29,244 nucleotides of DNA, taken from positions 1 through 29,244 of IMG/VR virus record IMGVR_UViG_3300047168_000002. The stretch is one strand, 5' to 3'. A program made the translations under genes and the position numbers. This DNA is from a virus. Position 1 is the stretch's first letter. Each line of letters starts with the position of its first letter. The notes beneath the pieces are model-generated. The model was given only the letters and a program-made list of their open reading frames with translations. It made no database searches and was not told the origin of the DNA. Shown here in pieces: positions 9,073-27,992 of the stretch.

Positions 9073-10277
9073 ACCAGGTTAATTGATACGTCGGACGCGG
9101 ACACGGTTGGCGTCTGCGTGATCGGTAGCGCGACCGAGTAAGCACTCGCCGTCGACACCCCAACCAGCACTGAAACGATCTGCGCCCACGGGCCAAGCGC
9201 CGCGATGGGCGCGTAGTAGCGGCTCGCGTAGACCGTCTCGCCGGTGCTCATCGGCGGACCCCCGTCGGCGCCGGCCGCCGCGCCAATGATGGCGTTCTGG
9301 ATCTGCGTGAGCGCGTCGGACGGCACAAGCGCCGTGTTGGCAACTGAAACCGCGAACAGTATGGCGGTGGCCGTCGGCCGCTCGAACAGAACGGAGTAGG
9401 ACGGCTGAGGGACGGTATAGCTGCTGTCAGTGACAGTGATCGTCGTGTTTCCGTTGTAGCCGCAGCCGGGGCTTTTCTTGGTCCAAATTGTCTCCGCCAC
9501 CAGCGTATCGGAGCCACCTACGACGGCGACCATGATGCTATGAGGCACCAGCGTAACAGAGTTGATGACGGCGGACGTGCCGGCGGTGTTTTCGATCGCA
9601 AAGCAATCCAGCACGCCGGGAAGCGCAAGCACGGACGCGCGGACCGAGTCCAGGAATCCCGTTGCGTTGATCGCGACCGATGCCGCGCGCCGCGCCTCAA
9701 ATGACGCCCGGTTTTCCACATCCTGGCCCAACACGCCTTCGGTGGGATTGTTCACCGAATCCCACCCGGGGATGGCCTGATAGATCGTGCCAAGGTTGTT
9801 CACGGGGCACGCAATCGGCCCCACAACCTGGCAGGCAAATGGCAGGCTGAGCGTGCCGGTGATGCCAATCGTGCCGGCAGACGTTGCCTGATAGAGGTTG
9901 CCGTCGGCGGCCACCACGATAGCCGCCTGCGGGATTGAGGTATTGACCGCGCCGACGCAGTTGGCCTGCACCGTGGTCGGCTCGGCGGCGTTGCGCGTCA
10001 GGAAATAGATGCGCCCGATCGCATCCTGGAACCGTCCCTCGGCGAACGCCGGATCGAACTGGCTGGCGAGATAGAGGAATTGATTATCCTTGTCCGCCAC
10101 GATTGCGGTCTGCGTCGTGGCGAGCTGGCCCTGCGGGGTGTCAAGATCGGGATTAAGGTTGCCGCCGAACGCGGCGTTGATGTCCGCGGTCGCGCCCGCG
10201 AGGATCGCGGACTCGGCCGGAACGGAAAAGCCCGTGGGGCCGAAGGACGGCTGCGGAATTGAGGTCGTGCCGGACAT
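9069..10277 (-). CDS. Baseplate wedge protein, gpJ-like
   Basis: A 402-residue Baseplate_J family protein (P2 gpJ, T4 gp6 relatives), the main wedge component. Diagnostic parts: AESAILAGATADINAAFGGN (22-41), LDTPQGQLATTQTAIVADKD (45-64), the FDPAFAEGRFQDAIGRIYFL segment (73-92), PGWDSVNNPTEGVLGQDVEN and RASFEARRAASVAINATG with the gpJ-type ExR pattern. The following VRASVLALPGVLDCFAIENT is also typical. It overlaps the next gene in a GTGA. Confidence 0.93.
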   Translation of the reverse strand: MSGTTSIPQPSFGPTGFSVPAESAILAGATADINAAFGGNLNPDLDTPQGQLATTQTAIVADKDNQFLYLASQFDPAFAEGRFQDAIGRIYFLTRNAAEPTTVQANCVGAVNTSIPQAAIVVAADGNLYQATSAGTIGITGTLSLPFACQVVGPIACPVNNLGTIYQAIPGWDSVNNPTEGVLGQDVENRASFEARRAASVAINATGFLDSVRASVLALPGVLDCFAIENTAGTSAVINSVTLVPHSIMVAVVGGSDTLVAETIWTKKSPGCGYNGNTTITVTDSSYTVPQPSYSVLFERPTATAILFAVSVANTALVPSDALTQIQNAIIGAAAGADGGPPMSTGETVYASRYYAPIAALGPWAQIVSVLVGVSTASAYSVALPITQTPTVSASDVSINLV

Positions 10278-10639
10278 CAGAATTGCACCGCTGTCGTTAC
10301 GCCCGCCTTGTCAGTCACCTGAACCTGCCCCGTGATTGCGCGCGTGGAAAACCCGGTGATGAAGCACGTCGCGGATACCACGGCAGGCACGCCAAGCGCC
10401 ACAGCCTGGATGGCAGCTTTCAACGCGCCAAAGTTCGGCGGCTGACCAAGAAACTGGGTGAAGTACGGAATACCGAGAGCCGTGTCGTAATAGCACTCAC
10501 CGAGAAACACACGAATTGCCGTCGCAACGTCCTGGGCAATTGCGTAGGGTGGCGCCGCGACGGCGATGTTGCCCGATGCGTCCACCGTCAAATCCCATGT
10601 CGCCGGGTCAAGCAGCAGCGTCGAATACGGAGCATTCAT
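10277..10639 (-). CDS. Baseplate wedge protein, gp25-like
   Basis: A 120-residue protein of the T4 gp25 / P2 gpW class that nucleates sheath assembly at the baseplate. Visible pattern: LLLDPATWDLTVDASGNIAV (8-27), AIAQDVATAIRVFLGECYYD (33-52) with the conserved E48, then GIPYFTQFLG and a C-terminal strand pair. Starts in an ATGA overlap with the spike gene and ends sharing a base with the gpJ-like start. Size and position before gpJ are as expected. Confidence 0.86.
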   Translation of the reverse strand: MNAPYSTLLLDPATWDLTVDASGNIAVAAPPYAIAQDVATAIRVFLGECYYDTALGIPYFTQFLGQPPNFGALKAAIQAVALGVPAVVSATCFITGFSTRAITGQVQVTDKAGVTTAVQF

Positions 10640-11268
10640 TCGTTCGGCACCCCGGTTTCCCCGCCACCTGACATAACGCCTCCGTGCTTGTGCGTGGAGC
10701 CGATGTTGACTCCGTTGTGAGTAAGCGTTCCGGAGGAGAGCGCGATGGACTGCGCGCTAATCGTCAGGGTCCCCGGCGACGTAATCGTGATTCCTCCCGC
10801 CGCAAAAGCAATACTCTGCGTCGGCGCCGATCCAGACCAGCCCATTCCGAGGTAAAATCCGTCCGCCATGTCGTGCTTGCGATACGAGCCCGGGTTCGCC
10901 TGGGCGCCGGTTTTGATGACTTTGCTGCTGTCGCGATCGGCAAACACGGCCAGCCCTATATCTCCAACCGCAGGGTCCATGATGATTGCGTTTGCGCCAC
11001 CCGCGATCCGCAGGTATTGCAGGCTGTGCAGCGTGCCGTGCGGGGTGGAATTGCCCTGGCTGTCAACTTGGTTGACCAGCGGCTGCACGTTGACGGTCCC
11101 GATCGGAGATGCTGACCCGGCCGTGGTGACGGCGGTGATCTTGACCCACTTGGCCGTTGATATCTGTGCCATGAGGGATTTTGCAAAGAAGCGGTAGGCC
11201 GCATACGCAGACCCGTCATCTCCCGGTTGCTGGTATCCGAACGGACCGCCCGTCGTGGTTTGCGACAT
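10636..11268 (-). CDS. Baseplate central spike (Gp138/gpV-like)
   Basis: The start is ATG 11268 (MSQTTTGGPFG); a longer open frame to 11340 overlaps the hub gene and is not needed. The 210-residue protein has an N-terminal helix region, an OB-fold-like domain (about 60-130) including VNVQPLVNQVDSQGN and VGDIGLAVFADRD, then a narrow beta-helix built of ITITSPGTLTISAQSIALSS. It ends in GSTHKHGGVMSGGGETG, where the HKH pair fits the His-x-His iron-binding apex known from P2 gpV and phi92 gp138. The trimer would be the tip that pierces the outer membrane, which agrees with a Gram-negative host. Confidence 0.88.
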   Translation of the reverse strand: MSQTTTGGPFGYQQPGDDGSAYAAYRFFAKSLMAQISTAKWVKITAVTTAGSASPIGTVNVQPLVNQVDSQGNSTPHGTLHSLQYLRIAGGANAIIMDPAVGDIGLAVFADRDSSKVIKTGAQANPGSYRKHDMADGFYLGMGWSGSAPTQSIAFAAGGITITSPGTLTISAQSIALSSGTLTHNGVNIGSTHKHGGVMSGGGETGVPNE

Positions 11269-13278: not shown

Positions 13279-15386
13279 GCCAGCCCGTAGTTGGCTTGCG
13301 AAACGAACCCATATTGGGACAAGCGGTTGCGGATCAGGTCGGCGTGCGTGTTCGGGTCCGCGCTGGGCGTGGTGATATTGATGTCGCCATGGAAGTTGGT
13401 CTTGCTGCTATTGTCGGTGCTGGTGTTGGAGATCGACCTCTCGCGGGCGGCAAGGAATGCGCCGGGGGATGGGGCGGCCGGCGCGGTCCACCGCGAACGA
13501 AACTGCTCGGCCAGCGCACCGCGTGCCGATGCCTCTCCGTTTGCATTGCGGGGCCGCTCGTAATACCGCGACACAATTGCGCCAGCTTCCGCTGCCGTCT
13601 TGGCGCCCTTAAGGCGCTGCCCGGCCGCCTGTTCCGCGCCGCGCGTCAGTTCGTAGTTAATAAAATCTACTTGGTCCTGAAACGAAGATTGGTGGATATC
13701 GAAACCCTTAAACGCCTTGAACGCGGCCTGCCGGTCGGGATGCCATTGGCCGAGTCCATAGGCTAGGCCACCGTCGCCGACCTCGCGGGGGTTGAAGCTG
13801 CTTTCGCGTTGGATATTGGCCGCGATACCGGCCGCCTGCTCGGGCGACCAGCCAAGCTGCTGAAGGCGCTGCCCGATGGCGTCACCCGCACCGCTGGCGC
13901 CTTGGGGGCCGAGTGCCGGGCCGGCGTAGCCGGGGCGTACTTGCTCGCCCAGCCGCTGCGGCGCATCCGCCGGGTTGCCCCGGCTCTGCGGGCCGAACGC
14001 GGGGCCGACGCGCGGGACACCGTTGGGCGCAGACGCGGGTTGAGGTGTAGCGGGGGCAAATGCGGCCGGGGCCAAGCCCAGCGCGTCCCGCAGTTTTTCA
14101 AAGAACGCCTTGGGATCCCAGAGCCAATTTCCCTTTGTGTCATCTGGAAGATCGGGCAGCCCGGTTCCAATACCGCCCGTGGCATTTCCCACCTTGATCG
14201 CCGCGAGGATGGCGCCCAGCAGGACCACCATGCGCCCCAGCGGGGTGAGCGACAGGGCAAGCCGCCCCGCAACTGCGGCGCCAGCGGCGGCCCCGCCAGC
14301 GACCTCGGCGCCTGCAACAGCGCCACCGGCAGCACTCGCACCGCCAGCCGCCGCAGCAGCGGCCTCGGCCGCCACCGCCGTCGAGCGCATGAGCCGAAAC
14401 GCGAGCACGATCTGCGATATGCTTGCGAGCAATCCCACGACTTTGCTCGCCGCCCAGAGCGCAAAAAACTCTTCGCTGATCTGAACCCATCCCCCCATCG
14501 CTTGCACAACGGAATTGATGTCGAGTGCCGCCGCGCGCACCACGCGCCCAAAGCGCTCCACGCCTTCGACGAAGTTCTTCTCAAACTGCCGACCCGCGTC
14601 GGACTGCACCCACGCAATGAATTGGTTGGCAAGGTCCGTGAGGGGCGGAAGCAGATCGGCCAAGATCGTGCGGCCGAGGTTTCGACCCACTTGCTCCAGC
14701 CGCGAAAGCTGGACGTAAAACTCCTGCGCGACCCGCGCATCTTCGGGGGACAGGACGCCGAGTTTCATTACGTCCGCGAACGCTGCGCGAAACTCGTTCG
14801 GTTTCAACATGAGGGTGTTGGCGAGACTGCCGAGACCCATTTGATTGATGAGCGCCAACTGCTTCGGCGCAGGCATGGACTGGATGCGCTCGTTTAAGTC
14901 CGTGAGAATTTGACCCAGCGAACGCGCTTGAATGCCATACGAATAGAGATATGGCAGAGCGCCCGACGCCACGCCTGTCGTTGCGAACGTCGCAAGGCTC
15001 TGCGAGAGACCGCTAAGCGCGCTATCCGCGCCTTCCACTGAATCTCCAGACCGCTTTGCGACTTCTTCCCACGCGTTCAGTTCTTGGGTTGCCACCCCCA
15101 GTTGCTTTGCCAGTCGTCCCGTCGCCGCGTCACTCGCTATGATGTCGCGCGCAAAATCTTTGACGCCCCGCCCGGCCGTGAACACCGCGAACATCGCAAT
15201 CGCCTCGTTGCGAATGCGAGTGTAAAACTCGGCGGCCTTCCGCCCGGCCGCCTCAATGTCTTTGGCGGTCTGTTCCGCCTGCTCCTTGGTTTTCTTGAGG
15301 TCGCCGGCCGCCTTGGCGGCACCTTTGTCATACCCGGCCGCGTCCAAACCGAGCGTCACCACCAATGCGTCAATCACGGTCGGCAT
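13275..15386 (-). CDS. Tail tape measure protein with tail lysozyme domain
   Basis: A 703-residue protein that sets tail length, located after the chaperone pair. The N terminus (VIDALVVTLGLDAAGYDKGA) opens a charged coiled-coil region to about residue 57. Hydrophobic segments lie at 309-330 and 376-399, separated by a very Ala/Gly-rich stretch (337-375); such segments are thought to enter the host membrane during DNA injection. Residues 501-633 form a phage-tail-lysozyme-like domain: LGWSPEQAAGIAANIQRESS with E528 as the likely catalytic Glu, then GLAYGLGQWH (541-550) and VDFINYEL. This domain would cut peptidoglycan during infection. The C terminus (HADLIRNRLSQYG) is typical of tape measures. 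The stop overlaps the next start (ATGA). Confidence 0.92.
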   Translation of the reverse strand: MPTVIDALVVTLGLDAAGYDKGAAKAAGDLKKTKEQAEQTAKDIEAAGRKAAEFYTRIRNEAIAMFAVFTAGRGVKDFARDIIASDAATGRLAKQLGVATQELNAWEEVAKRSGDSVEGADSALSGLSQSLATFATTGVASGALPYLYSYGIQARSLGQILTDLNERIQSMPAPKQLALINQMGLGSLANTLMLKPNEFRAAFADVMKLGVLSPEDARVAQEFYVQLSRLEQVGRNLGRTILADLLPPLTDLANQFIAWVQSDAGRQFEKNFVEGVERFGRVVRAAALDINSVVQAMGGWVQISEEFFALWAASKVVGLLASISQIVLAFRLMRSTAVAAEAAAAAAGGASAAGGAVAGAEVAGGAAAGAAVAGRLALSLTPLGRMVVLLGAILAAIKVGNATGGIGTGLPDLPDDTKGNWLWDPKAFFEKLRDALGLAPAAFAPATPQPASAPNGVPRVGPAFGPQSRGNPADAPQRLGEQVRPGYAGPALGPQGASGAGDAIGQRLQQLGWSPEQAAGIAANIQRESSFNPREVGDGGLAYGLGQWHPDRQAAFKAFKGFDIHQSSFQDQVDFINYELTRGAEQAAGQRLKGAKTAAEAGAIVSRYYERPRNANGEASARGALAEQFRSRWTAPAAPSPGAFLAARERSISNTSTDNSSKTNFHGDINITTPSADPNTHADLIRNRLSQYGFVSQANYGLA

Positions 15387-15388
15387 GA

Positions 15389-15610
15389 TCAGCGTCGCGC
15401 CTGCTTGCGCTCGGCTTCGGCCAGCTCGTTGCGGTTGTGCGCGTCCACGGTCATCACCTCCAGCATCAGGTGCGCATCCTCAATCCCATAGACCGTCGAT
15501 AGCTCATGCAGTGTCGCCATTTTTGCGGACACCAGGGAGCCGATCGCACGCGGGACGTTGGCATAGTCGATCAGTTCAGAGCCGATGTTTCCGCCGCCGA
15601 GGTCCGCCAT
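15389..15610 (-). CDS. Tail assembly chaperone, downstream frame (gpGT extension)
   Basis: This frame encodes 73 residues from ATG 15610, or 79 residues when entered by -1 frameshifting at 15628. It overlaps the upstream chaperone by 40 bases and lies in the -1 frame relative to it. There is no stop between the slip site and the ATG, and the first shifted residues read SRLRST before MADLGGGN. The sequence is helical and charged (LMLEVMTVDAHNRNELAEAE), as in the T domains of gpGT pairs, which contact the tube subunit. Separate initiation at the ATG is possible, but the arrangement favours expression mainly as a 209-residue fusion with residues 1-130 of the previous product. Confidence 0.82.
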   Translation of the reverse strand: MADLGGGNIGSELIDYANVPRAIGSLVSAKMATLHELSTVYGIEDAHLMLEVMTVDAHNRNELAEAERKQARR

Positions 15611-16017
15611 TGTCGAGCGTAGTCGAGAAAAAAACCGAACATCAGAATGAACACCTCCTTTTTGAGGCGCAGCAGCGTCATCAGTTCTTCGATATCGCCG
15701 TCGAATTTCGGTTCGCGCTCCACGCTGTCATCGGACGGATTGGGCAAGATGCGCACGCAGCGCATCAGATCGTCCATCAGCGCCTTGGCATCCAAGGGAG
15801 ACGCGTAGGACAGCATCCTCAGGCCGAGGCTCGCGATGCCCGCGGCTCCAAGTGCGTGAGCATCCTCCGGGATGTCCACCCCGGCCCGCGCCAAAGCCAT
15901 CAACGCGCGCACCGCCCAGAACTCCCCGTCCACCGCCGACATCTCTGTGATGCGGTAGCGCTTGCCCTTGTCGCGCCCCTCGGCATCAATCGTGATGACA
16001 ACCGTCTTGCGGGCCAT
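15571..16017 (-). CDS. Tail assembly chaperone, upstream frame (lambda gpG-like role)
   Basis: A 148-residue protein with the form of tail assembly chaperones in this phage type: MARKTVVITIDAEGRDKGKR (1-20), the helical EFWAVRALMALARAG, LGAAGIASLGLRML, DDLMRCVRILP and DDIEELMTLLRLKKEVF-like region near 107-123. Chaperones of this kind coat the tape measure during tube polymerisation and are absent from the virion. Near its end, codons GGT TTT TTT at 15628-15636 form a slippery heptamer that allows a -1 shift into the next frame; the shifted product would keep residues 1-130 and lose LDYARQWRTSAAETSALN. Confidence 0.88.
   Translation of the reverse strand: MARKTVVITIDAEGRDKGKRYRITEMSAVDGEFWAVRALMALARAGVDIPEDAHALGAAGIASLGLRMLSYASPLDAKALMDDLMRCVRILPNPSDDSVEREPKFDGDIEELMTLLRLKKEVFILMFGFFLDYARQWRTSAAETSALN
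15628..15634 (-). promoter_or_regulatory. -1 programmed ribosomal frameshift site T_TTT_TTT
   Basis: On the coding strand the reading is GGT TTT TTT CTC, so the heptamer T TTT TTT fits the X_XXY_YYZ rule exactly in the frame of the upstream chaperone. After slipping back one base, translation continues TCT CGA CTA CGC into the downstream chaperone frame with no stop until 15389. I see no strong stem-loop just downstream by eye. Frameshifting between paired chaperone genes before the tape measure is a conserved feature of long-tailed phages. Confidence 0.85.
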
Positions 16018-16478
16018 TAAGCGCCCACCATTGCTGCGCTGGCCAACACGCTCTGCCAGGTGATCGTGAACGGCCGCCCTTCCAGCAGCTTCCCGGCATT
16101 GGGGATCACGCCGCCTTTGGTGAGATATCCTGTCTGCATGGTGTAGGATTTACCCGTTCCCAGCAGCGTGATCTTGCCACTGGCCGGATACGTGGTCTGA
16201 TTCGCCTGAGACGTTCCGATCCACGTCTCGAACATATCCGACGTGAGAGATGTCGGCATGATGTAGTACACCTGAGGGACCGGAAAAGGAACGAAGCCGC
16301 CGGACAAGACTCCATCCACGCCCATCACGACTTCGGCAAGCTCGACGATATCGGTTTCCCATGCGCGGTCGGCCATGTAGCCGCCGAGCACTTGCGGGCT
16401 GTTGAATAGATTTGGCACCGTAATAGTGATTGTGCTGTTGGCGACAGTAAGCGTTCGGTTGTTCGCGGAAAGTGCCAT
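16017..16478 (-). CDS. Tail tube protein, DUF3277 type
   Basis: A 153-residue protein with the DUF3277 signature MADRAWETDIVELAEVVMGV (35-54) followed by DGVLSGGFVPFPV, a central FETWIG segment and a C-terminal GKLLEGRPFTITW. Proteins of this family form the inner tube of the contractile tail, and the gene sits directly after the sheath as usual. It has the expected size of about 150 residues. The stop overlaps the next start (TAATG). Confidence 0.88.
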   Translation of the reverse strand: MALSANNRTLTVANSTITITVPNLFNSPQVLGGYMADRAWETDIVELAEVVMGVDGVLSGGFVPFPVPQVYYIMPTSLTSDMFETWIGTSQANQTTYPASGKITLLGTGKSYTMQTGYLTKGGVIPNAGKLLEGRPFTITWQSVLASAAMVGA

Positions 16479-16490
16479 GGCGCGCGCTCC

Positions 16491-18470
16491 TTATTGCAGT
16501 TCGATCGCATTGACTGTGATCTGCTGGACGCTACCGCCCTGGGTGTACCACAGGGAAATGATCGGAGTCTGCCGCAGACCGCGCGCCGATGGTCCTGGGT
16601 CTTGGATGTAAAGGTAGTAGCCGAGCGAGTAAATCGTCTGGTCCACCGCGACAACTCCACCGACAACGGACGAAACCTGCGCGTTCAGCGTTTGAATTTG
16701 CGCGGACGACAGCGTCGTGCCGGGGGAAATGGCGCCGAACGCGATTGCCTGAAGCACCGGCCCGTTGCCTGACGTTGAGCCCGATATTGGCTGCCCGATG
16801 ATCGTTTCGGAGATAATCTGATATCCATCGGAGTCGTATACGATTTGCCCGATGTTCAGCAGCAGCGAGATCAACGCGGACTGGATCGAGGCATTGAGCC
16901 AGATCGCATACACATAGGCGTCGGCCCAGCCGTATCCGCCCGTGACGCTGCCGTTCTGGAAGCAGACGAAATTTCCTGTCCGTTCGGCGTATTGGCCGTA
17001 GAAGTTGTAGCCATTGCCGAGCAGGTTGGTGGATGCGGTGAGATTGCTGACGGTGGCGTTCAAGCCGGCCTGCTGTTTGTAGGCCAAAGTTTTGGCGCCG
17101 GCGATCTGGTTGAAATTCAGCGACGCGGCCCAGCTCATTGCAAATGCCGCGTCGAGAACTGACAGATAGATCAACGTCGTGCCGGACGAGTTGGAACCGT
17201 TCGGGCCGATCAGATAGCCCGTGGATGTGGTGGCCGGCAACGCCTGCGTTGGTCCGATGTCGCTGTCCCAGCACACGTACCAGTATTGGGGGCCCTGGGC
17301 GGTGCACCACGCAGAAAACGCAATCTTGTCGGCTTGGACCGGCTCAAAGATCGTTGTGAAGCTGACCCAATTTTGCGTAATCGCAATAAGGTTGGCCATG
17401 AACGCCGATGGCGTCTGATCCGCAGCCCCCTGGCTTAGGACCGCGCCAAGCGCGCTGGTGAGTGCGAGCGTGGTGGCGAGACCGCCCGTGGCATAGGTGA
17501 TTACGCTGCCGGGGCCGGCCTCGGTGCTCGTGACGACGAACGCGCCAAACAGGCTGCTGTAGGTAACGTTGAGTGCGGGTCCAGATGCGGTGATGGTCTC
17601 GCTGGCCACTGTCTGGCTAATCGAAACGATGTATGTGCCGGTCAGCCCGGTGCCCGTTCCGAATGCGACGACGGTGGTGCCAACAGTGACGCCCGTGCCG
17701 GTGAGCACTTGGCCCACCGCAAGCGTGCCGCTCGACACCGCGGACACAGTGAGCGTGCCGGCTGCCTGAGTGACCGTGCCGCTGACCACCGCAAGATCGC
17801 TGACGCTGACGGTGTAGGTGCCGACGCCGCCGGTCGTGCCGGTGATTTGCGAGGCGATCTGCAGCCCGGTCGGGATTCCTGTGCCGGATAGCGTGCCGCC
17901 GACAACCAGCGTGCCGCTCCCGACCGCCGTGACGGTCATGACATTGCCGCTTATCGACGCCGTGACCGATGCCGATGCTGCGGCAATTGCGCCCGTGACG
18001 CTGGCCTCGGTTGGTTCCGACGCCTGTAGCGCGGTTTGCAGCGTTGCGGCGGCAGCGCTCAGGCTGGACGATCCCGACAAATTGACGCCCGACGCGGTAT
18101 AGGTGGCGCCGTTGGCCGCAATGCTGATCGACCCCGAGGTGATTCCCTGCACCGCCGCAAGCGACACGCCAAAGCCGCCGCGCAGATACGCGGACACGGG
18201 CGAGGTGTTGTACTGGACGAACATCAGCGCGGCCGGTATCGAATTGGCCGTCGTGAAGCTGCCGAAATAGACCTGCGCGAAAGCGTATTGGCTGGATGCC
18301 AGACCGAAATACGCGCCCACGGCGGTGGCGGAGGCAAACGATGCGAAGGTGCCGACCGGAACGAGCGTGCTATTGTCTAACACCATTCCGGTGCAGTTCA
18401 GCGCGTTGCCGCCCGTGCCGATCACTGACCCGATGGATTGGACGAGCTGGTTGGCCGGAATGCTGGTCAT
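16491..18470 (-). CDS. Contractile tail sheath protein, DUF3383 type, with inserted repeat module
   Basis: A 659-residue protein with the DUF3383 layout found as tail sheath in myoviruses of this type. Recognisable parts are the N terminus (IPANQLVQSIGSVIGTGG, 4-21), VGAYFGLASSQYAFAQVYF, the LRGGFG segment, and the C-terminal half with YWYVCWDSDI, LAYKQQAGLNATVSN, NGYNFYGQYAERTGNF, DAYVYAIWLNASIQSAL and the closing DPGPSARGLRQTPIISLWY. Residues 156-296 are an extra Gly/Ser/Thr-rich double repeat that interrupts a loop before NVTYSSLFGAFVVTSTEAG; the same module is in the capsid cement protein. The sheath identifies the tail as contractile. The next gene downstream is the tube. Confidence 0.9.
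   Translation of the reverse strand: MTSIPANQLVQSIGSVIGTGGNALNCTGMVLDNSTLVPVGTFASFASATAVGAYFGLASSQYAFAQVYFGSFTTANSIPAALMFVQYNTSPVSAYLRGGFGVSLAAVQGITSGSISIAANGATYTASGVNLSGSSSLSAAAATLQTALQASEPTEASVTGAIAAASASVTASISGNVMTVTAVGSGTLVVGGTLSGTGIPTGLQIASQITGTTGGVGTYTVSVSDLAVVSGTVTQAAGTLTVSAVSSGTLAVGQVLTGTGVTVGTTVVAFGTGTGLTGTYIVSISQTVASETITASGPALNVTYSSLFGAFVVTSTEAGPGSVITYATGGLATTLALTSALGAVLSQGAADQTPSAFMANLIAITQNWVSFTTIFEPVQADKIAFSAWCTAQGPQYWYVCWDSDIGPTQALPATTSTGYLIGPNGSNSSGTTLIYLSVLDAAFAMSWAASLNFNQIAGAKTLAYKQQAGLNATVSNLTASTNLLGNGYNFYGQYAERTGNFVCFQNGSVTGGYGWADAYVYAIWLNASIQSALISLLLNIGQIVYDSDGYQIISETIIGQPISGSTSGNGPVLQAIAFGAISPGTTLSSAQIQTLNAQVSSVVGGVVAVDQTIYSLGYYLYIQDPGPSARGLRQTPIISLWYTQGGSVQQITVNAIELQ
17583..18005 (-). 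repeat. Double beta-rich repeat module in the tail sheath (copy 2)
   Basis: Sheath residues 156-296 hold two tandem units: one through [19 protein letters not shown] and GTTGGVGTYTVS, the next through [19 protein letters not shown] and GTGTGLTGTYIVS. They correspond unit for unit to the cement protein insertion at 22116-22541. The module breaks the sheath in an exposed loop rather than sitting at an end. Confidence 0.85.
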
Positions 18471-22034: not shown

Positions 22035-22973
22035 TTAACCGAGCAAGTGGTTGGAAATCTTGACCAATTCGCCCGGCGCGCCCGCGCTCATCGCCACAAA
22101 CTTGGTCTGCACGTTCGTGCCGGCGGTGACGGTGGTTGATGCGGCGGTCTGCGTCGGGGACACGATATACGTGCCCGTCCCGCCCGTGCCGGTGCCGAGC
22201 GCGGTGATCACCGTGCCCGTGGTAACGCCCGTTCCCGACAACGGATCGCCGGCCCCCAGCGTGCCGGACGACACGGCGGAAACCGTGAGCGTGCCATACG
22301 TCTCGCTGATCGTGGTGGAAGCGACTGTTTGTTCTGGAATCGACACCGCGTAAGTGCCGATGCCACCGGTCGTGCCGGAAAGTTGCGAGACGATTTGCGT
22401 TCCGGTCGCCACATTGGTGCCGGAGAGGGTGCCGCCGACAACTGCCGTGCCAGAGCCGACAGCGGTGATGCTCAGAACGTTTCCGGAAATTGAGCCGGTG
22501 AAAGAGCCCGTGGACGCTGCAATGGCGCCCGTGACGGACGCGGAAGAAACAGAGCCGGCGGTAGCGAAACTCACAAGCCCGTTGGCGTAGTTCGCATAAG
22601 CGTTCATTCCAATCGTGGCTTGGGTGGTTCCGTTGTTGACCACCCAGAAATCGCCGGCCGAAAACAGCGTGACCGGATAACCGGGCGGGATCGTGAAGCT
22701 GGTCTCGGCCAGATACGTCGTGATGAGCGCTTGCAGCGACCGATGCACGAATCCCGTCACCGGACCGGAGCCGAACGAATTGACGGTCGTGGGCGCATTG
22801 TCGGGGTCAATTGTGCTGGCGTTCCACCAGGCAAACGCGCCGACTGTGACGCCCGCCGGGCCGGCCACGAGGCCGCCGGGGCCGGCGAGCACGTTGTCGC
22901 GGGGGTTATAGCTTGCGAAATCCCCGGCCACGGCGGGCGCGGGGACAGTGTTGACTTGCGTCTGAAACGGCAT
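22035..22973 (-). CDS. Capsid structural cement/decoration protein with inserted double repeat module
   Basis: A 312-residue protein in the slot before the major capsid gene where cement (head decoration) proteins sit in this phage type. The N-terminal part ([20 protein letters not shown], 13-32; VTVGAFAWW, 42-50) and the last 27 residues ([18 protein letters not shown]) look like the outer parts of such a cement protein. Between them, residues about 145-286 form a Gly/Ser/Thr/Val-rich insertion made of two similar units, also found in the tail sheath. Start is supported by GGAGGGAG a few bases upstream of the ATG. The protein should coat the capsid outside, with the insertion projecting to the medium. 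The cement assignment is by position and terminal motifs, so moderate. Confidence 0.75.
22116..22541 (-). repeat. Double beta-rich repeat module in the cement protein (copy 1)
   Basis: Residues 145-286 hold two tandem units of about 65-70 residues. The first runs through [18 protein letters not shown] and [12 protein letters not shown], the second through [19 protein letters not shown] and [13 protein letters not shown]. The same two-unit module lies in the tail sheath at 17583-18005, in the same order and with the same VTGAIA lead-in. The composition and periodic GTY-V-S ends suggest Ig-like or similar beta domains displayed on the virion surface. Confidence 0.85.
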
Positions 22974-25305: not shown

Positions 25306-25479
25306 CTAGGCGTCCATGTCCTTCGGATCAAACCCCAGCATCATCACCACGTCCGGCGGGCTTTCGGGCAATTCCTCATCGTCGGGATCGAAGTCGCCGT
25401 CCGGGTCAATTCGCGGATCGGGCAGGGGCGTGCCCACGGCGCCGAAGTGAGCCATCGGAAGCTTTATTTCATTACTCAT
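25306..25479 (-). CDS. Small acidic protein of unknown function (57 aa)
   Basis: The gene begins at an ATG overlapping the portal stop (ATGA) and ends at TAG, leaving 38 bases before the head protein start. The product is strongly acidic, with the run DPDGDFDPDDEELPE (25-39) and a C terminus MLGFDPKDMDA. It has no Cys, no membrane segment and no recognisable domain. Translational coupling to the portal and the lack of any better reading of this interval make it a likely real gene. Its place in the operon suggests a role in head assembly, for example a portal- or capsid-associated factor, but that is inference only. Confidence 0.72.
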   Translation of the reverse strand: MSNEIKLPMAHFGAVGTPLPDPRIDPDGDFDPDDEELPESPPDVVMMLGFDPKDMDA

Positions 25480-27992
25480 GCGGCGCCCTTCCAGGAATCA
25501 AAAACGGTTGGGTTGATATAGGAATTTAGCGCAATTGACGGGGTATTGCCAAGCTTTTTAGACACGACCTCGGCAACTGCCTTAACGGCCTTGTCGCGAT
25601 CTTTTGCGGTTTTCGGCGCGTCCATGGACGATACCAATTTGACTGCGGTTGCCGTGCCAAGGTGCGTGCGAAAGTCTTTTGTCTTAAAGCTTCCGTCTCC
25701 CATCGTGTGGGTATAGTCGAGCAGCGACTTGTCCGTGACGTTGGGAAACAGCGGCCCTTCGGCGCCGGCCTTCCCGGCACGCTCGGCCAATGCGTTGGCG
25801 AGCGTCGGATCGTCCACTTTGAGATTTAGCGCCACGCCTTTCTTACCGGTAAAGCGCAGGTATGTTTCACCGTTCTCCTGCACAACGTGCTGACCCTGCA
25901 ATGTCGTGGCGCCATACGCTTTTTTGTCCGCGCCCGTGTCATCGTCACTACCGGGCCGCACGCCCATCTTCATGATGAGATCAAGACAGTCCGCAGCGTC
26001 TTTTATTCGCGGGTTTGTAGACTTCATCCCCTCGGCATTTTGCCGCTCTATTGCCGGGAACTGTTCCATCAGCGAGTTGACGCGCGAAAACTTGGCTGCC
26101 GCTTGCGTTTTGACGAACTCGTCCGAGTAGACGGATTGCAGACGCCCCTTTGCGTCTTTGCCTTGGGCTTGCAGCGCTGACCCGGGATCGTCACTGAATT
26201 TGACGTCCGTCCATGCGGGCGGAAGCTTTAATTTTTGTATGTGCGCGGGAAGCGGAGAACCGTCAGCTTGAACCCGTTTTCCGTCCTTTGTTACGGCGTG
26301 CTTCAAAAGCGCGCGATCTGTTTTCGGGGAGGATTCTGAAGGTTTTGGCTTGGGCTTTTCTGGAACTTTTGCCTTGGTTGGTGCCCCAGATGAAGCGCCG
26401 CTGCCAAACTTTCCATCCGGCGCGCGTGGGTGCTCAGACTCAACAAAATTGGCCTCATCGCCGGCGATGGGTTCCGGCGCACCCTCGTGAGGTTCCCGCA
26501 TTCCGGATCCCAGCGACGGGTCCAGCGCCTCGTCTGGGGGCTCCGGCATTACCGACAGGTCAAGCCCCTGGTAAACGCCGTCATCTTCGGCGGCAAGCCG
26601 CTCGCGCTCTTCGCGCGGGTCGAGCACTCCATCCGCGATGTAAACCGCCGCAGTGTCGGCGTTGGCTTTGCGCAGGGCGCCCTTTTCCGATTCCGTCGCC
26701 TGCCACAACGGCTCGAACGCGAACCGGATATCGGGGTCGATCTCACCGAACTCGGATAGCTGCACCAACTCAAGCGCGGCCGTGAACGGGTCCGCAACCA
26801 CATCCTCTTGCACGCCATGAACGCTGTCGTACCAGACGCGGAGCTCGCCTTCCGACGATGCGTTTAGGCCGGTAGGTGTGATCCCGAACATCTTGACCAG
26901 CGGAATGCCGGACACGCCGCTGATGTGCTCCTGGCTTTGCGCCTGGAGATGATCCAGGCCACCCAGTGGCGTCGAGACGTTGCTGAGTTCTTCAGTCGCC
27001 TTGTTGACGATCATCAGGCCCAGATTTCCGCGGATTGCGTTGAACAAATCCGCGCGCGCGCGCTCCGCATCGCCGCCGCCGTTGCTCAGCAGAGCCTGGA
27101 TGTCCGTGCTCAGAACCATCGTGGAAAATGCGTTCACCAGATCGCCCACGCTCTTTCGTGTCCGCAACCAGTTCTCGACGCATTCGATCGCCATTTGCGA
27201 TAGGGACAACCCCCCGAACAAATATGCCGGTTTCAGCAGGTCTGGCACCTCGCGCGAAACCACCCCGAACAACCTGGAGCGGTGAATCTCCTTGCCCTGC
27301 ACATACCATGTCTCCGGGTTGTAGAAATTCGGATGCAGCGGGTCCGATGCGTTGTATTGTCCCGGATAGGTCCACAGAGGTTCAATGGTTTTGAACCCAC
27401 GCAGAGAGCCGAGCTTGACTTTCTGGCGCGTGCGCAGAAGCGGCGTTCGAAGCTCTGGCAGGTTGTCGCCCGCGCCGGTGTCGGCGTATATTTGGCCGCG
27501 CCCGAACAGCCCGTCGTGAAGTATGGCCTCGCGCAATATGTCACGGACGCGGAACTTCTTCAGCGCTCCGTCGATCGCCTTGATAACGTCGAGTTTGTCT
27601 TCCTTGCCGACGTTGACTAGGCGCAACCATTTGCGCGTTGCTTCCTTGGCGTAGGTCTCGCTGATGCGTCGATATTCAGCGCGCTGGGCCAGTTCGGCGA
27701 GGCGCGGGTAGCCGATGAAGCGGATGCCGTCCCAGCCGTATTGGCCTGCGAATTGCTGTATCGCCCACTGGTTGACCGAGCAGATGTCGGAGTCCATTGC
27801 CATGGCCGGCGCATCCGGCGGCAGAACACCGGGCATCGGGGGCGGAATTGAAAACGGGTTTTTGCCTCCCGCTTTGCCGAACAGGGCGCGCGCCTCGGGG
27901 CGGATGCGCATTGCGGGCGGCGGGGCGGCTTTCGACAGCGCGGGCTCAATGCGCGGCGGGGTTGGGGTTGCGGGACGGCGCAAAGGCCACAT
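25476..27992 (-). CDS. Portal protein (DUF1073) fused to a C-terminal type IB DNA topoisomerase
   Basis: This 838-residue protein has two parts. Residues about 60-475 are a DUF1073 portal, the dodecameric DNA gateway at one capsid vertex; diagnostic stretches are GYPRLAELAQRAEYRRISE (94-112), FYNPETWYVQGKEIHRSRL (223-241), EVPDLLKPAYLFGGLSLSQ (248-266) and the WLRTRKS segment. Residues 480-560 are a Pro/Glu/Lys-rich linker with the segment HPRAPDGKFGSG. Residues about 560-838 match bacterial/poxvirus topoisomerase IB end to end: PPAWTDV (591-597), LQAQGKDAKGR (607-617), GVRPG (R679), AYGATTLQGQHV (692-703), FTGKKGV (K717), KDFRTHLGT (R775) and LGNTPSIALNSYINP (N816, Y825). The frame is continuous. 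It starts on the terminase stop and ends in an ATGA overlap with the next gene. Both family calls are strong; the purpose of the fusion is unknown. Confidence 0.93.
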   Translation of the reverse strand: MWPLRRPATPTPPRIEPALSKAAPPPAMRIRPEARALFGKAGGKNPFSIPPPMPGVLPPDAPAMAMDSDICSVNQWAIQQFAGQYGWDGIRFIGYPRLAELAQRAEYRRISETYAKEATRKWLRLVNVGKEDKLDVIKAIDGALKKFRVRDILREAILHDGLFGRGQIYADTGAGDNLPELRTPLLRTRQKVKLGSLRGFKTIEPLWTYPGQYNASDPLHPNFYNPETWYVQGKEIHRSRLFGVVSREVPDLLKPAYLFGGLSLSQMAIECVENWLRTRKSVGDLVNAFSTMVLSTDIQALLSNGGGDAERARADLFNAIRGNLGLMIVNKATEELSNVSTPLGGLDHLQAQSQEHISGVSGIPLVKMFGITPTGLNASSEGELRVWYDSVHGVQEDVVADPFTAALELVQLSEFGEIDPDIRFAFEPLWQATESEKGALRKANADTAAVYIADGVLDPREERERLAAEDDGVYQGLDLSVMPEPPDEALDPSLGSGMREPHEGAPEPIAGDEANFVESEHPRAPDGKFGSGASSGAPTKAKVPEKPKPKPSESSPKTDRALLKHAVTKDGKRVQADGSPLPAHIQKLKLPPAWTDVKFSDDPGSALQAQGKDAKGRLQSVYSDEFVKTQAAAKFSRVNSLMEQFPAIERQNAEGMKSTNPRIKDAADCLDLIMKMGVRPGSDDDTGADKKAYGATTLQGQHVVQENGETYLRFTGKKGVALNLKVDDPTLANALAERAGKAGAEGPLFPNVTDKSLLDYTHTMGDGSFKTKDFRTHLGTATAVKLVSSMDAPKTAKDRDKAVKAVAEVVSKKLGNTPSIALNSYINPTVFDSWKGAA
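25479..26315 (-). other. Topoisomerase IB domain within the portal fusion protein
   Basis: Portal residues 560-838 form what looks like a whole small TopIB: a short N-terminal beta region ending in the PPAWTDV signature, then the helical catalytic domain. By motif alignment with the vaccinia (R130, K167, R223, H265, Y274) and Deinococcus (Asn in place of His) enzymes, the equivalents are R679, K717, R775, N816 and Y825; the N816-Y825 spacing of nine matches both. Y825 would form the 3'-phosphotyrosyl link. All active-site residues are present, so catalytic activity is plausible. In eight 60-base lines counted by hand across 25501-26040 GC is about 55%, against about 62% in four lines of the portal part, a weak hint of separate origin. 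Confidence 0.9.

Follow-up and report, generated by a model that had tools for sequence, protein, structure and literature searches.

In phage lambda, the short tail assembly chaperone gpG is made before the tape measure, and a low-level -1 shift near the 3' end adds the T domain of gpGT, the role and mechanism of this pair being described in the available part of PMC5009743. The pair reported here shares that arrangement, but belongs to a contractile-tailed phage and carries the heptamer T_TTT_TTT, the likeness considered being one of arrangement. In the available text of PMC12846349, a conserved -1 frameshift at GTTTTT is given for the tail assembly chaperones (TACs) of Pseudomonas phage Adele and the Vandenendeviridae/Andersonviridae, which are likewise produced in a myovirus by a -1 shift and whose downstream ORF is usually annotated as hypothetical, whereas the family treated here possesses two interchangeable heptamers together with Shine-Dalgarno-like (SD-like) and hairpin signals. 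The dnaX cassette of E. coli, as presented in the available part of PMC5009743, shifts by -1 at A_AAA_AAG with 50% efficiency and yields a shifted product that is shorter; the relatives as a group resemble it in having an SD-like 5' stimulator, a slippery heptamer and a 3' stem-loop, but dnaX differs in its own heptamer and in that the shifted product is the shorter one. A shifting level of 6-7% has been measured for two HK97-like chaperone genes (PMC3711429, available part), and machine prediction of such frameshift sites has been reported (PMC10885494, available part).

The two frames analysed here very probably encode a pair of tail assembly chaperones in a contractile-tailed phage, with programmed -1 ribosomal frameshifting as the mode of expression; the arrangement, register, family, fold match and conservation of the pair are direct observations. 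The mechanism works like that of lambda G/GT and is already known in tailed phages, whereas the family-wide exchange of two overlapping heptamers and a lineage lacking the arrangement may be new. A search by family names in mostly open-access literature found no paper on frameshifting of this chaperone family, which Xu 2004, Levin 1993 and Vladimirov 2022 may describe, and the available parts of PMC4440721 and PMC5539321 contain no mention of it.

The chaperone pair in the window

The window, that is, the whole stretch of DNA analysed, is a virus record of 29,244 bases with a contractile-tail module on the minus strand. The genes follow each other in the order terminase, portal, Mu F-like protein, DUF2213 protein, cement-type protein, major head protein, neck terminator, DUF3383 sheath, tube-type protein, chaperone pair and tape measure, with a Dit-like protein (below cut-off) and then a baseplate J protein behind them (Table 1). 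The pair is thus placed between the tube-type protein and the tape measure gene, as in lambda G/GT-type pairs. PF22764 is listed in Pfam as the tail fiber protein gp32 of E217 and phrog_1964 is a virion structural protein family, the label "tube" being suggested by gene position. NCBIfam assigned no family to any of the 5 proteins searched, and Rfam gave no match across 15300-16050.

Table 1. Features at and around the chaperone pair, with positions in the window.
Feature	Position	Strand	Evidence
Tail assembly chaperone, short form (TAC-N, lambda gpG-like), 148 aa	15571..16017	-	phrog_1932, PF21822, AF2 fold match
Shine-Dalgarno-like element AAGGAGGTG upstream of the slip site	15652..15660	-	anti-SD duplex -12.9 kcal/mol
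Slippery heptamer T_TTT_TTT, in register	15628..15634	-	register kept in relatives
-1 frame extension (T domain), 79 aa post-slip plus stop, completing the 209-aa long form	15389..15628	-	phrog_3976
In-frame ATG of the downstream frame, without an SD-like word, probably incidental	15608..15610	-	
Tape measure protein with tail lysozyme domain, 703 aa	13275..15386	-	phrog_9570 E 6.7e-79; PF18013 E 7.1e-28
Tail tube-type virion protein, directly upstream of the pair	16017..16478	-	PF22764 E 2.1e-14; phrog_1964 E 4e-40
Contractile tail sheath (DUF3383)	16491..18470	-	PF11863 E 1.2e-78; phrog_205 tail sheath E 2.1e-61

The preliminary description had proposed a -1 frameshift site in exact register, a -1 frame open to the downstream stop and a position just before the tape measure, all of which are borne out. 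The run appears as seven A's on the plus strand (T's on the minus strand), and the zero frame around it reads TTC GG[T TTT TTT] CTC, which is the X_XXY_YYZ pattern in register. The -1 frame, free of stops beginning 290 nt inside the upstream gene, continues to the stop at 15389-15391 and gives a fusion of 130 + 79 = 209 aa with the junction FGFF-SRLR, separated by 2 nt from the tape measure gene, which begins at 15386. As the base before GGT is C, only T_TTT_TTT fits the window. The heptamer alone is not significant, since one T7 run is observed against 2.87 expected in shuffles and since 39 in-register X_XXY_YYZ sites, this one included, occur in the 25 minus-strand ORF intervals listed. The run is the sole homopolymer of at least 7 in the window. 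As judged from sequence comparison, the significance of the site rests on its position and its conservation in relatives.

Slippage at this site, its efficiency and the chaperone role of the products are predicted, and would take the following course. Most ribosomes would terminate at the zero-frame stop and release the 148-aa short form, while at GG[T TTT TTT] a minority would slip, both Phe-tRNAs re-pairing one base back on UUU UUU, and would read on in the -1 frame; their product would be the long form of 209 aa, in which the N domain is followed by the T domain. If the pair behaves like lambda gpG/gpGT, the tape measure protein may be bound by numerous short copies and a few long ones, the tube subunits may be recruited by the T domain, and both forms may leave the finished tail.

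Two further observations concern virion proteins encoded elsewhere in the window. The portal ORF (25476-27992, minus strand, 838 aa) contains PF06381 at residues 99-449 and a C-terminal topoisomerase IB domain (PF21338, 569-613; PF01028, 629-820). In L391, the sole relative from the scan, the topoisomerase part is a 314-aa ORF sharing 63% identity with that of the window, and no other ORF of at least 300 aa is listed upstream of it; a word search of the literature found no paper on a fusion of portal and topoisomerase IB. Two different virion proteins, the tail sheath (residues 154-295) and the cement-type head protein (22035-22973, minus strand, residues 143-284), contain the same 142-residue insert, a Ser/Thr/Gly-rich domain that is 66% identical between them.

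Family and fold of the two domains

The 148-aa ORF belongs to phrog_1932 (E 1.4e-42) and scores 23.5 bits with PF21822 (TAC_15), above the cut-off of 22, while the 209-aa fusion scores 21.0 bits, just below it. The -1 frame extension matches phrog_3976 (E 6.6e-20). The AF2 model of the short form (pLDDT 89) can be superimposed on the HK97 tail assembly chaperone 2OB9 (Z 6.1, rmsd 3.2, 83 residues), yet with an identity of 12%, and on 5IR0, a Vibrio PICI protein (Z 6.5); the next structural row among the 108 chains aligned has Z 2.9, and a Z below 8 can mean a common arrangement. HK97 is a siphovirus. Predicted viral structures named tail assembly chaperone are matched too (best named E 8.1e-8), and the chaperone identity given to the pair in the preliminary description agrees with the phrog_1932, PF21822 and HK97 matches.

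Weaker Foldseek matches connect the N model with the Moogle tape measure chaperone (E 0.15) and the T-domain model with proteins of PaP1 and PAK_P1 (E 0.3-0.5), two phages which we take to be kin of Adele. Searched by sequence, the PDB yielded nothing credible either with the N profile (best E 0.15) or with the T domain, and no PDB chain was matched by the T-domain model in Foldseek, which is not a sign of a new fold.

Conservation of frame and slip codons among relatives

A total of 390 loci, the window included, were collected from IMG/VR contigs, GTDB genomes and named phages, with repeats of the same contigs among them; four of the locus scans contributed their 80 best matches out of several hundred. 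Sixteen sequences drawn from the -1 frame served as seeds of the T-domain profile, and the other loci were scanned in three frames of the chaperone strand, hits being accepted between 60 nt ahead of the point where the chaperone match ends and 400 nt beyond it. The T domain was located in 388 of the 390 loci, the remaining 2 contigs ending too early, and in all 388, from phage records and bacterial genomes alike, it lies in the -1 frame, a count from which the 16 seed loci are not independent, as they were chosen from that frame. Nucleotide de-duplication left 191 loci at 85% and 157 at 75%, and 152 of the latter have Phe in the junction column. In the 85% set, 5 of the 191 loci lack this Phe, namely L021, L077 and L187, where TTT stands one codon later, L039, whose alignment ends early, and L390, which contains no T run.

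The -1 frame crosses the slip site without a stop in 152/152 loci, and the junction Phe codon is TTT in 150 of them, compared with 35% elsewhere in the gene. The sequence NNT TTT T occurs at the junction in 147/152 loci; elsewhere in these genes it is found at 7 of 18172 codon positions. In an earlier set of 105 loci, the Gly before the junction Phe is always GGT (55/55) and the Asp always GAT (40/40). The T run, for which the preliminary description had named variation in length or register among homologues as contrary evidence, does vary in length but is conserved in register: T TTT T occupies the same codon columns in 147/152 loci, while the run comprises 5 T's in 81 loci, 6 in 42, at least 7 in 25 (nine in 4 of the 152) and 3-4 in 4. 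Most of the length changes exchange one canonical heptamer for an overlapping one.

The residues read after the slip in the -1 frame are conserved as F (146 of the 152 loci), two free positions, R (146) and R (105), while the zero-frame stop is scattered from 0 to 159 nt beyond the slip site. The window is the only one of the 152 loci with Leu, three codons post-slip, where 146 carry Arg. As its 12 best chaperone matches among the assembled loci are only 46-54% identical, recent decay of the window copy is conceivable.

Alternation between two overlapping heptamers

Both canonical heptamers overlap on one T TTT T core. In the 75% set, G_GGT_TTT alone is found in 58 loci, G_GGT_TTC in 2, A_AAT_TTT alone in 7, T_TTT_TTN alone in 55 (22 of which are T7, the kind of the window), both heptamers in 12 and neither in 18. 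A G precedes GGT in 60/63 loci without T_TTT_TTN and in 11/20 with it (p 7e-5 at 75% nucleotide identity), a covariation which holds under protein de-duplication at 70, 60 and 55% (p 1e-5, 0.001 and 7e-4). Since this base is a third codon position and often silent, the G bias points to paired re-pairing of two tRNAs. The corresponding covariation for GAT fades (p 0.004 at 75% nucleotide; 0.003, 0.06 and 1.0 at 70, 60 and 55% protein), and AAT shows no covariation with the preceding base.

Eleven relatives (L005, L022, L024, L048, L052, L053, L059, L098, L108, L133 and L145) contain the junction GAT TTT TCN, which is no canonical heptamer, with the -1 arrangement unchanged; in 10 of these 11, G precedes GAT.

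Hairpin and Shine-Dalgarno-like signals

Over the 152 loci, predicted structure has a single peak at about +0 to +5, with a mean z of -1.55 at +2, compared with -0.38 to +0.25 at offsets -120 to -10 and +10 to +90, and with -0.73 at -5 and -0.53 at +8. The hairpin signal is greatest among loci lacking T6 (-2.18 at +2) and falls to -0.92 for T6-only loci. At the same place the window has no hairpin (z between +0.7 and +1.4 for offsets from -5 to +8, and +0.86 in another computation), the values for 50 and 80 nt from +6 being -0.23 and -0.62, and its only low values lie at +90 (-2.54), -60 (-1.47) and -40 (-1.24). As a group, the 152 loci show the stem-loop that a dnaX-like cassette has a few nt downstream of its slip site; the window does not.

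Upstream of the slip site, Glu-Val codons of the relatives form an SD-like GAG-GTG. The ratio of GAG to GAA at the site is 94:29, compared with 628:612 elsewhere (p 2.5e-8), and pairing with the anti-SD is stronger (-6.87) than in synonymous resampling (-5.3 ± 0.21). SD-like 5-mers occur in 90/152 loci at the site, in 46/152 at a control about 30 nt upstream and in 3/152 at a second control, which gives the SD reading a rival, as Glu-Val codons generate such words; the GAG excess and the synonymous resampling are better evidence for the SD signal than the 5-mer counts. The duplex formed by AAGGAGGTG of the window ranks 6 of 152. Its distance to the T run is 17 nt from its end and 19 nt from AGGAGG, compared with the spacing of 9-14 nt documented for SD-like stimulators of -1 shifting in the available part of PMC5009743.

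Sites containing T6 have weaker hairpins (p 1e-8) and SDs (p 0.002) than other sites, a weakness which may be compositional, as their downstream G+C is 0.57 compared with 0.65 at the others. No correlation indicating compensation between hairpin and SD was found among the relatives (rho 0.07, p 0.41). The window copy is a canonical but sparsely stimulated member of the family.

The element AAGGAGGTG is also followed, 11 nt after its GGAGG, by an in-frame ATG at 15642-15640 (Met126), just ahead of the slip site, where it could permit internal initiation. A role of the SD as start signal for Met126 was dropped, the column containing His in 142/152 loci and Met in 1/152.

A lineage without the frameshift arrangement

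Burkholderia phage Bcep781 (L392) possesses the same two domains in gp46 and gp47 (10216-11135, minus strand), with the T domain in frame in a separate gene. Gp46 is identified as the chaperone by phrog_1932 (5.1e-31), its PF21822 score of 12.9 bits being below the cut-off of 22, and residues 122-169 of gp47 are the T domain (own profile 3e-15, phrog_3976 8.4e-9). The gp47 gene lies directly upstream of gp46 and carries the T domain in frame behind about 120 residues, the start of which resembles the chaperone (hhalign E 2.7e-4, probability 42%); taken from stop to stop, the gp47 frame matches both the chaperone profile (5e-5) and the T-domain profile (1.5e-13). In a three-frame scan of Bcep781 and two Xanthomonas phages, the chaperone was followed by no T domain, and the 3' ends of the three chaperone genes contain no T run.

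Relatives of gp47 were found by tblastn in 22 phage records (5 Burkholderia, 17 Xanthomonas). In the two Xanthomonas records examined, the gp47-like gene again precedes the chaperone, in one of them with a small CDS between, and matches the T profile only and not the chaperone profile. The loci assigned to this arrangement, with an in-frame T domain in a gene of its own ahead of the chaperone, are L392, L393 and L394. Judging from these sequences, the long form of Bcep781-type phages appears to have moved to its own in-frame gene, which apparently replaced the frameshift; such a separate gene supports N and T in one chain as the working product. A title cited in the available part of PMC12846349 attributes a mechanism different from frameshifting to T4-like phages as well.

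Alternative explanations

Gene callers were expected in the preliminary description to record two genes, which is the case in 7 of 11 annotated named phage records (13 were opened, 2 of them without annotation): in these 7 the pair appears as two separate CDS, the coordinates of the second placing it in the -1 frame, while 4 records list the first only and none joins them. Such small separate CDS, the in-frame ATG at 15610-15608 and the lack of the near-invariant junction Arg in the window would suit an independent downstream gene, started from its own ATG by reinitiation or coupling and giving no fusion. This explanation is improbable, as an ATG between slip site and domain core exists in only 22/152 loci, the window included, 86/152 have no ATG, GTG or TTG there, and 20 of 23 ATGs, that of the window among them, lack a preceding SD-like word. 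The -1 residues upstream of the ATG position are moreover conserved directly from the slip site, and an independent gene gives no reason for the silent constraint on the slip codons. The preliminary suggestion that both routes may be used is weakened by the same ATG counts, and independent starts are unlikely as the main route.

Slippage of RNA polymerase on the T7 run, by which a minority of mRNAs would carry the shifted frame, might be considered for the sole homopolymer of its length in the window and for the 4 loci with nine T's. It is very improbable for a family in which 81/152 loci have five T's, and 4 have fewer, with the same frame relation throughout, the bacterial cases in the available part of PMC5009743 being runs of nine A or T, and in which ribosomal slippage is favoured by the G ahead of GGT as well as by the SD and hairpin signals. 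That a sequencing or assembly error split one gene, as might be suspected for a virus record from a public contig collection, is the least credible of the alternatives and already refuted, the -1 arrangement recurring at every locus where the T domain was located, in phage records and bacterial genomes. Programmed ribosomal frameshifting is retained as the explanation of the pair.

Implications for the family

Taken together, the data are read, with a modest leaning in favour of the whole, as follows. The phrog_1932/phrog_3976 family would keep a nearly invariant U_UUU_U core, with the second re-pairing tRNA moving between G_GGU_UUU (upstream) and U_UUU_UUN (downstream). A further set with neither heptamer, mostly GAU UUU UCN after G, would shift non-canonically, and members with slippery U6 would have weaker hairpin and SD signals. 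The Bcep781/Xanthomonas KPhi1 lineage would have left frameshifting, its long form being an own in-frame gene, and the window would be a U7 member without the hairpin.

With the frameshift reading, the product probably made from a chaperone locus is recovered which the annotated records examined split or half omit. The two overlapping heptamers, the non-canonical set and the lineage without the arrangement are natural variants for testing the determinants of -1 slippage, and the family is also suited to ask why phages keep the ratio of short to long form under ribosomal control.
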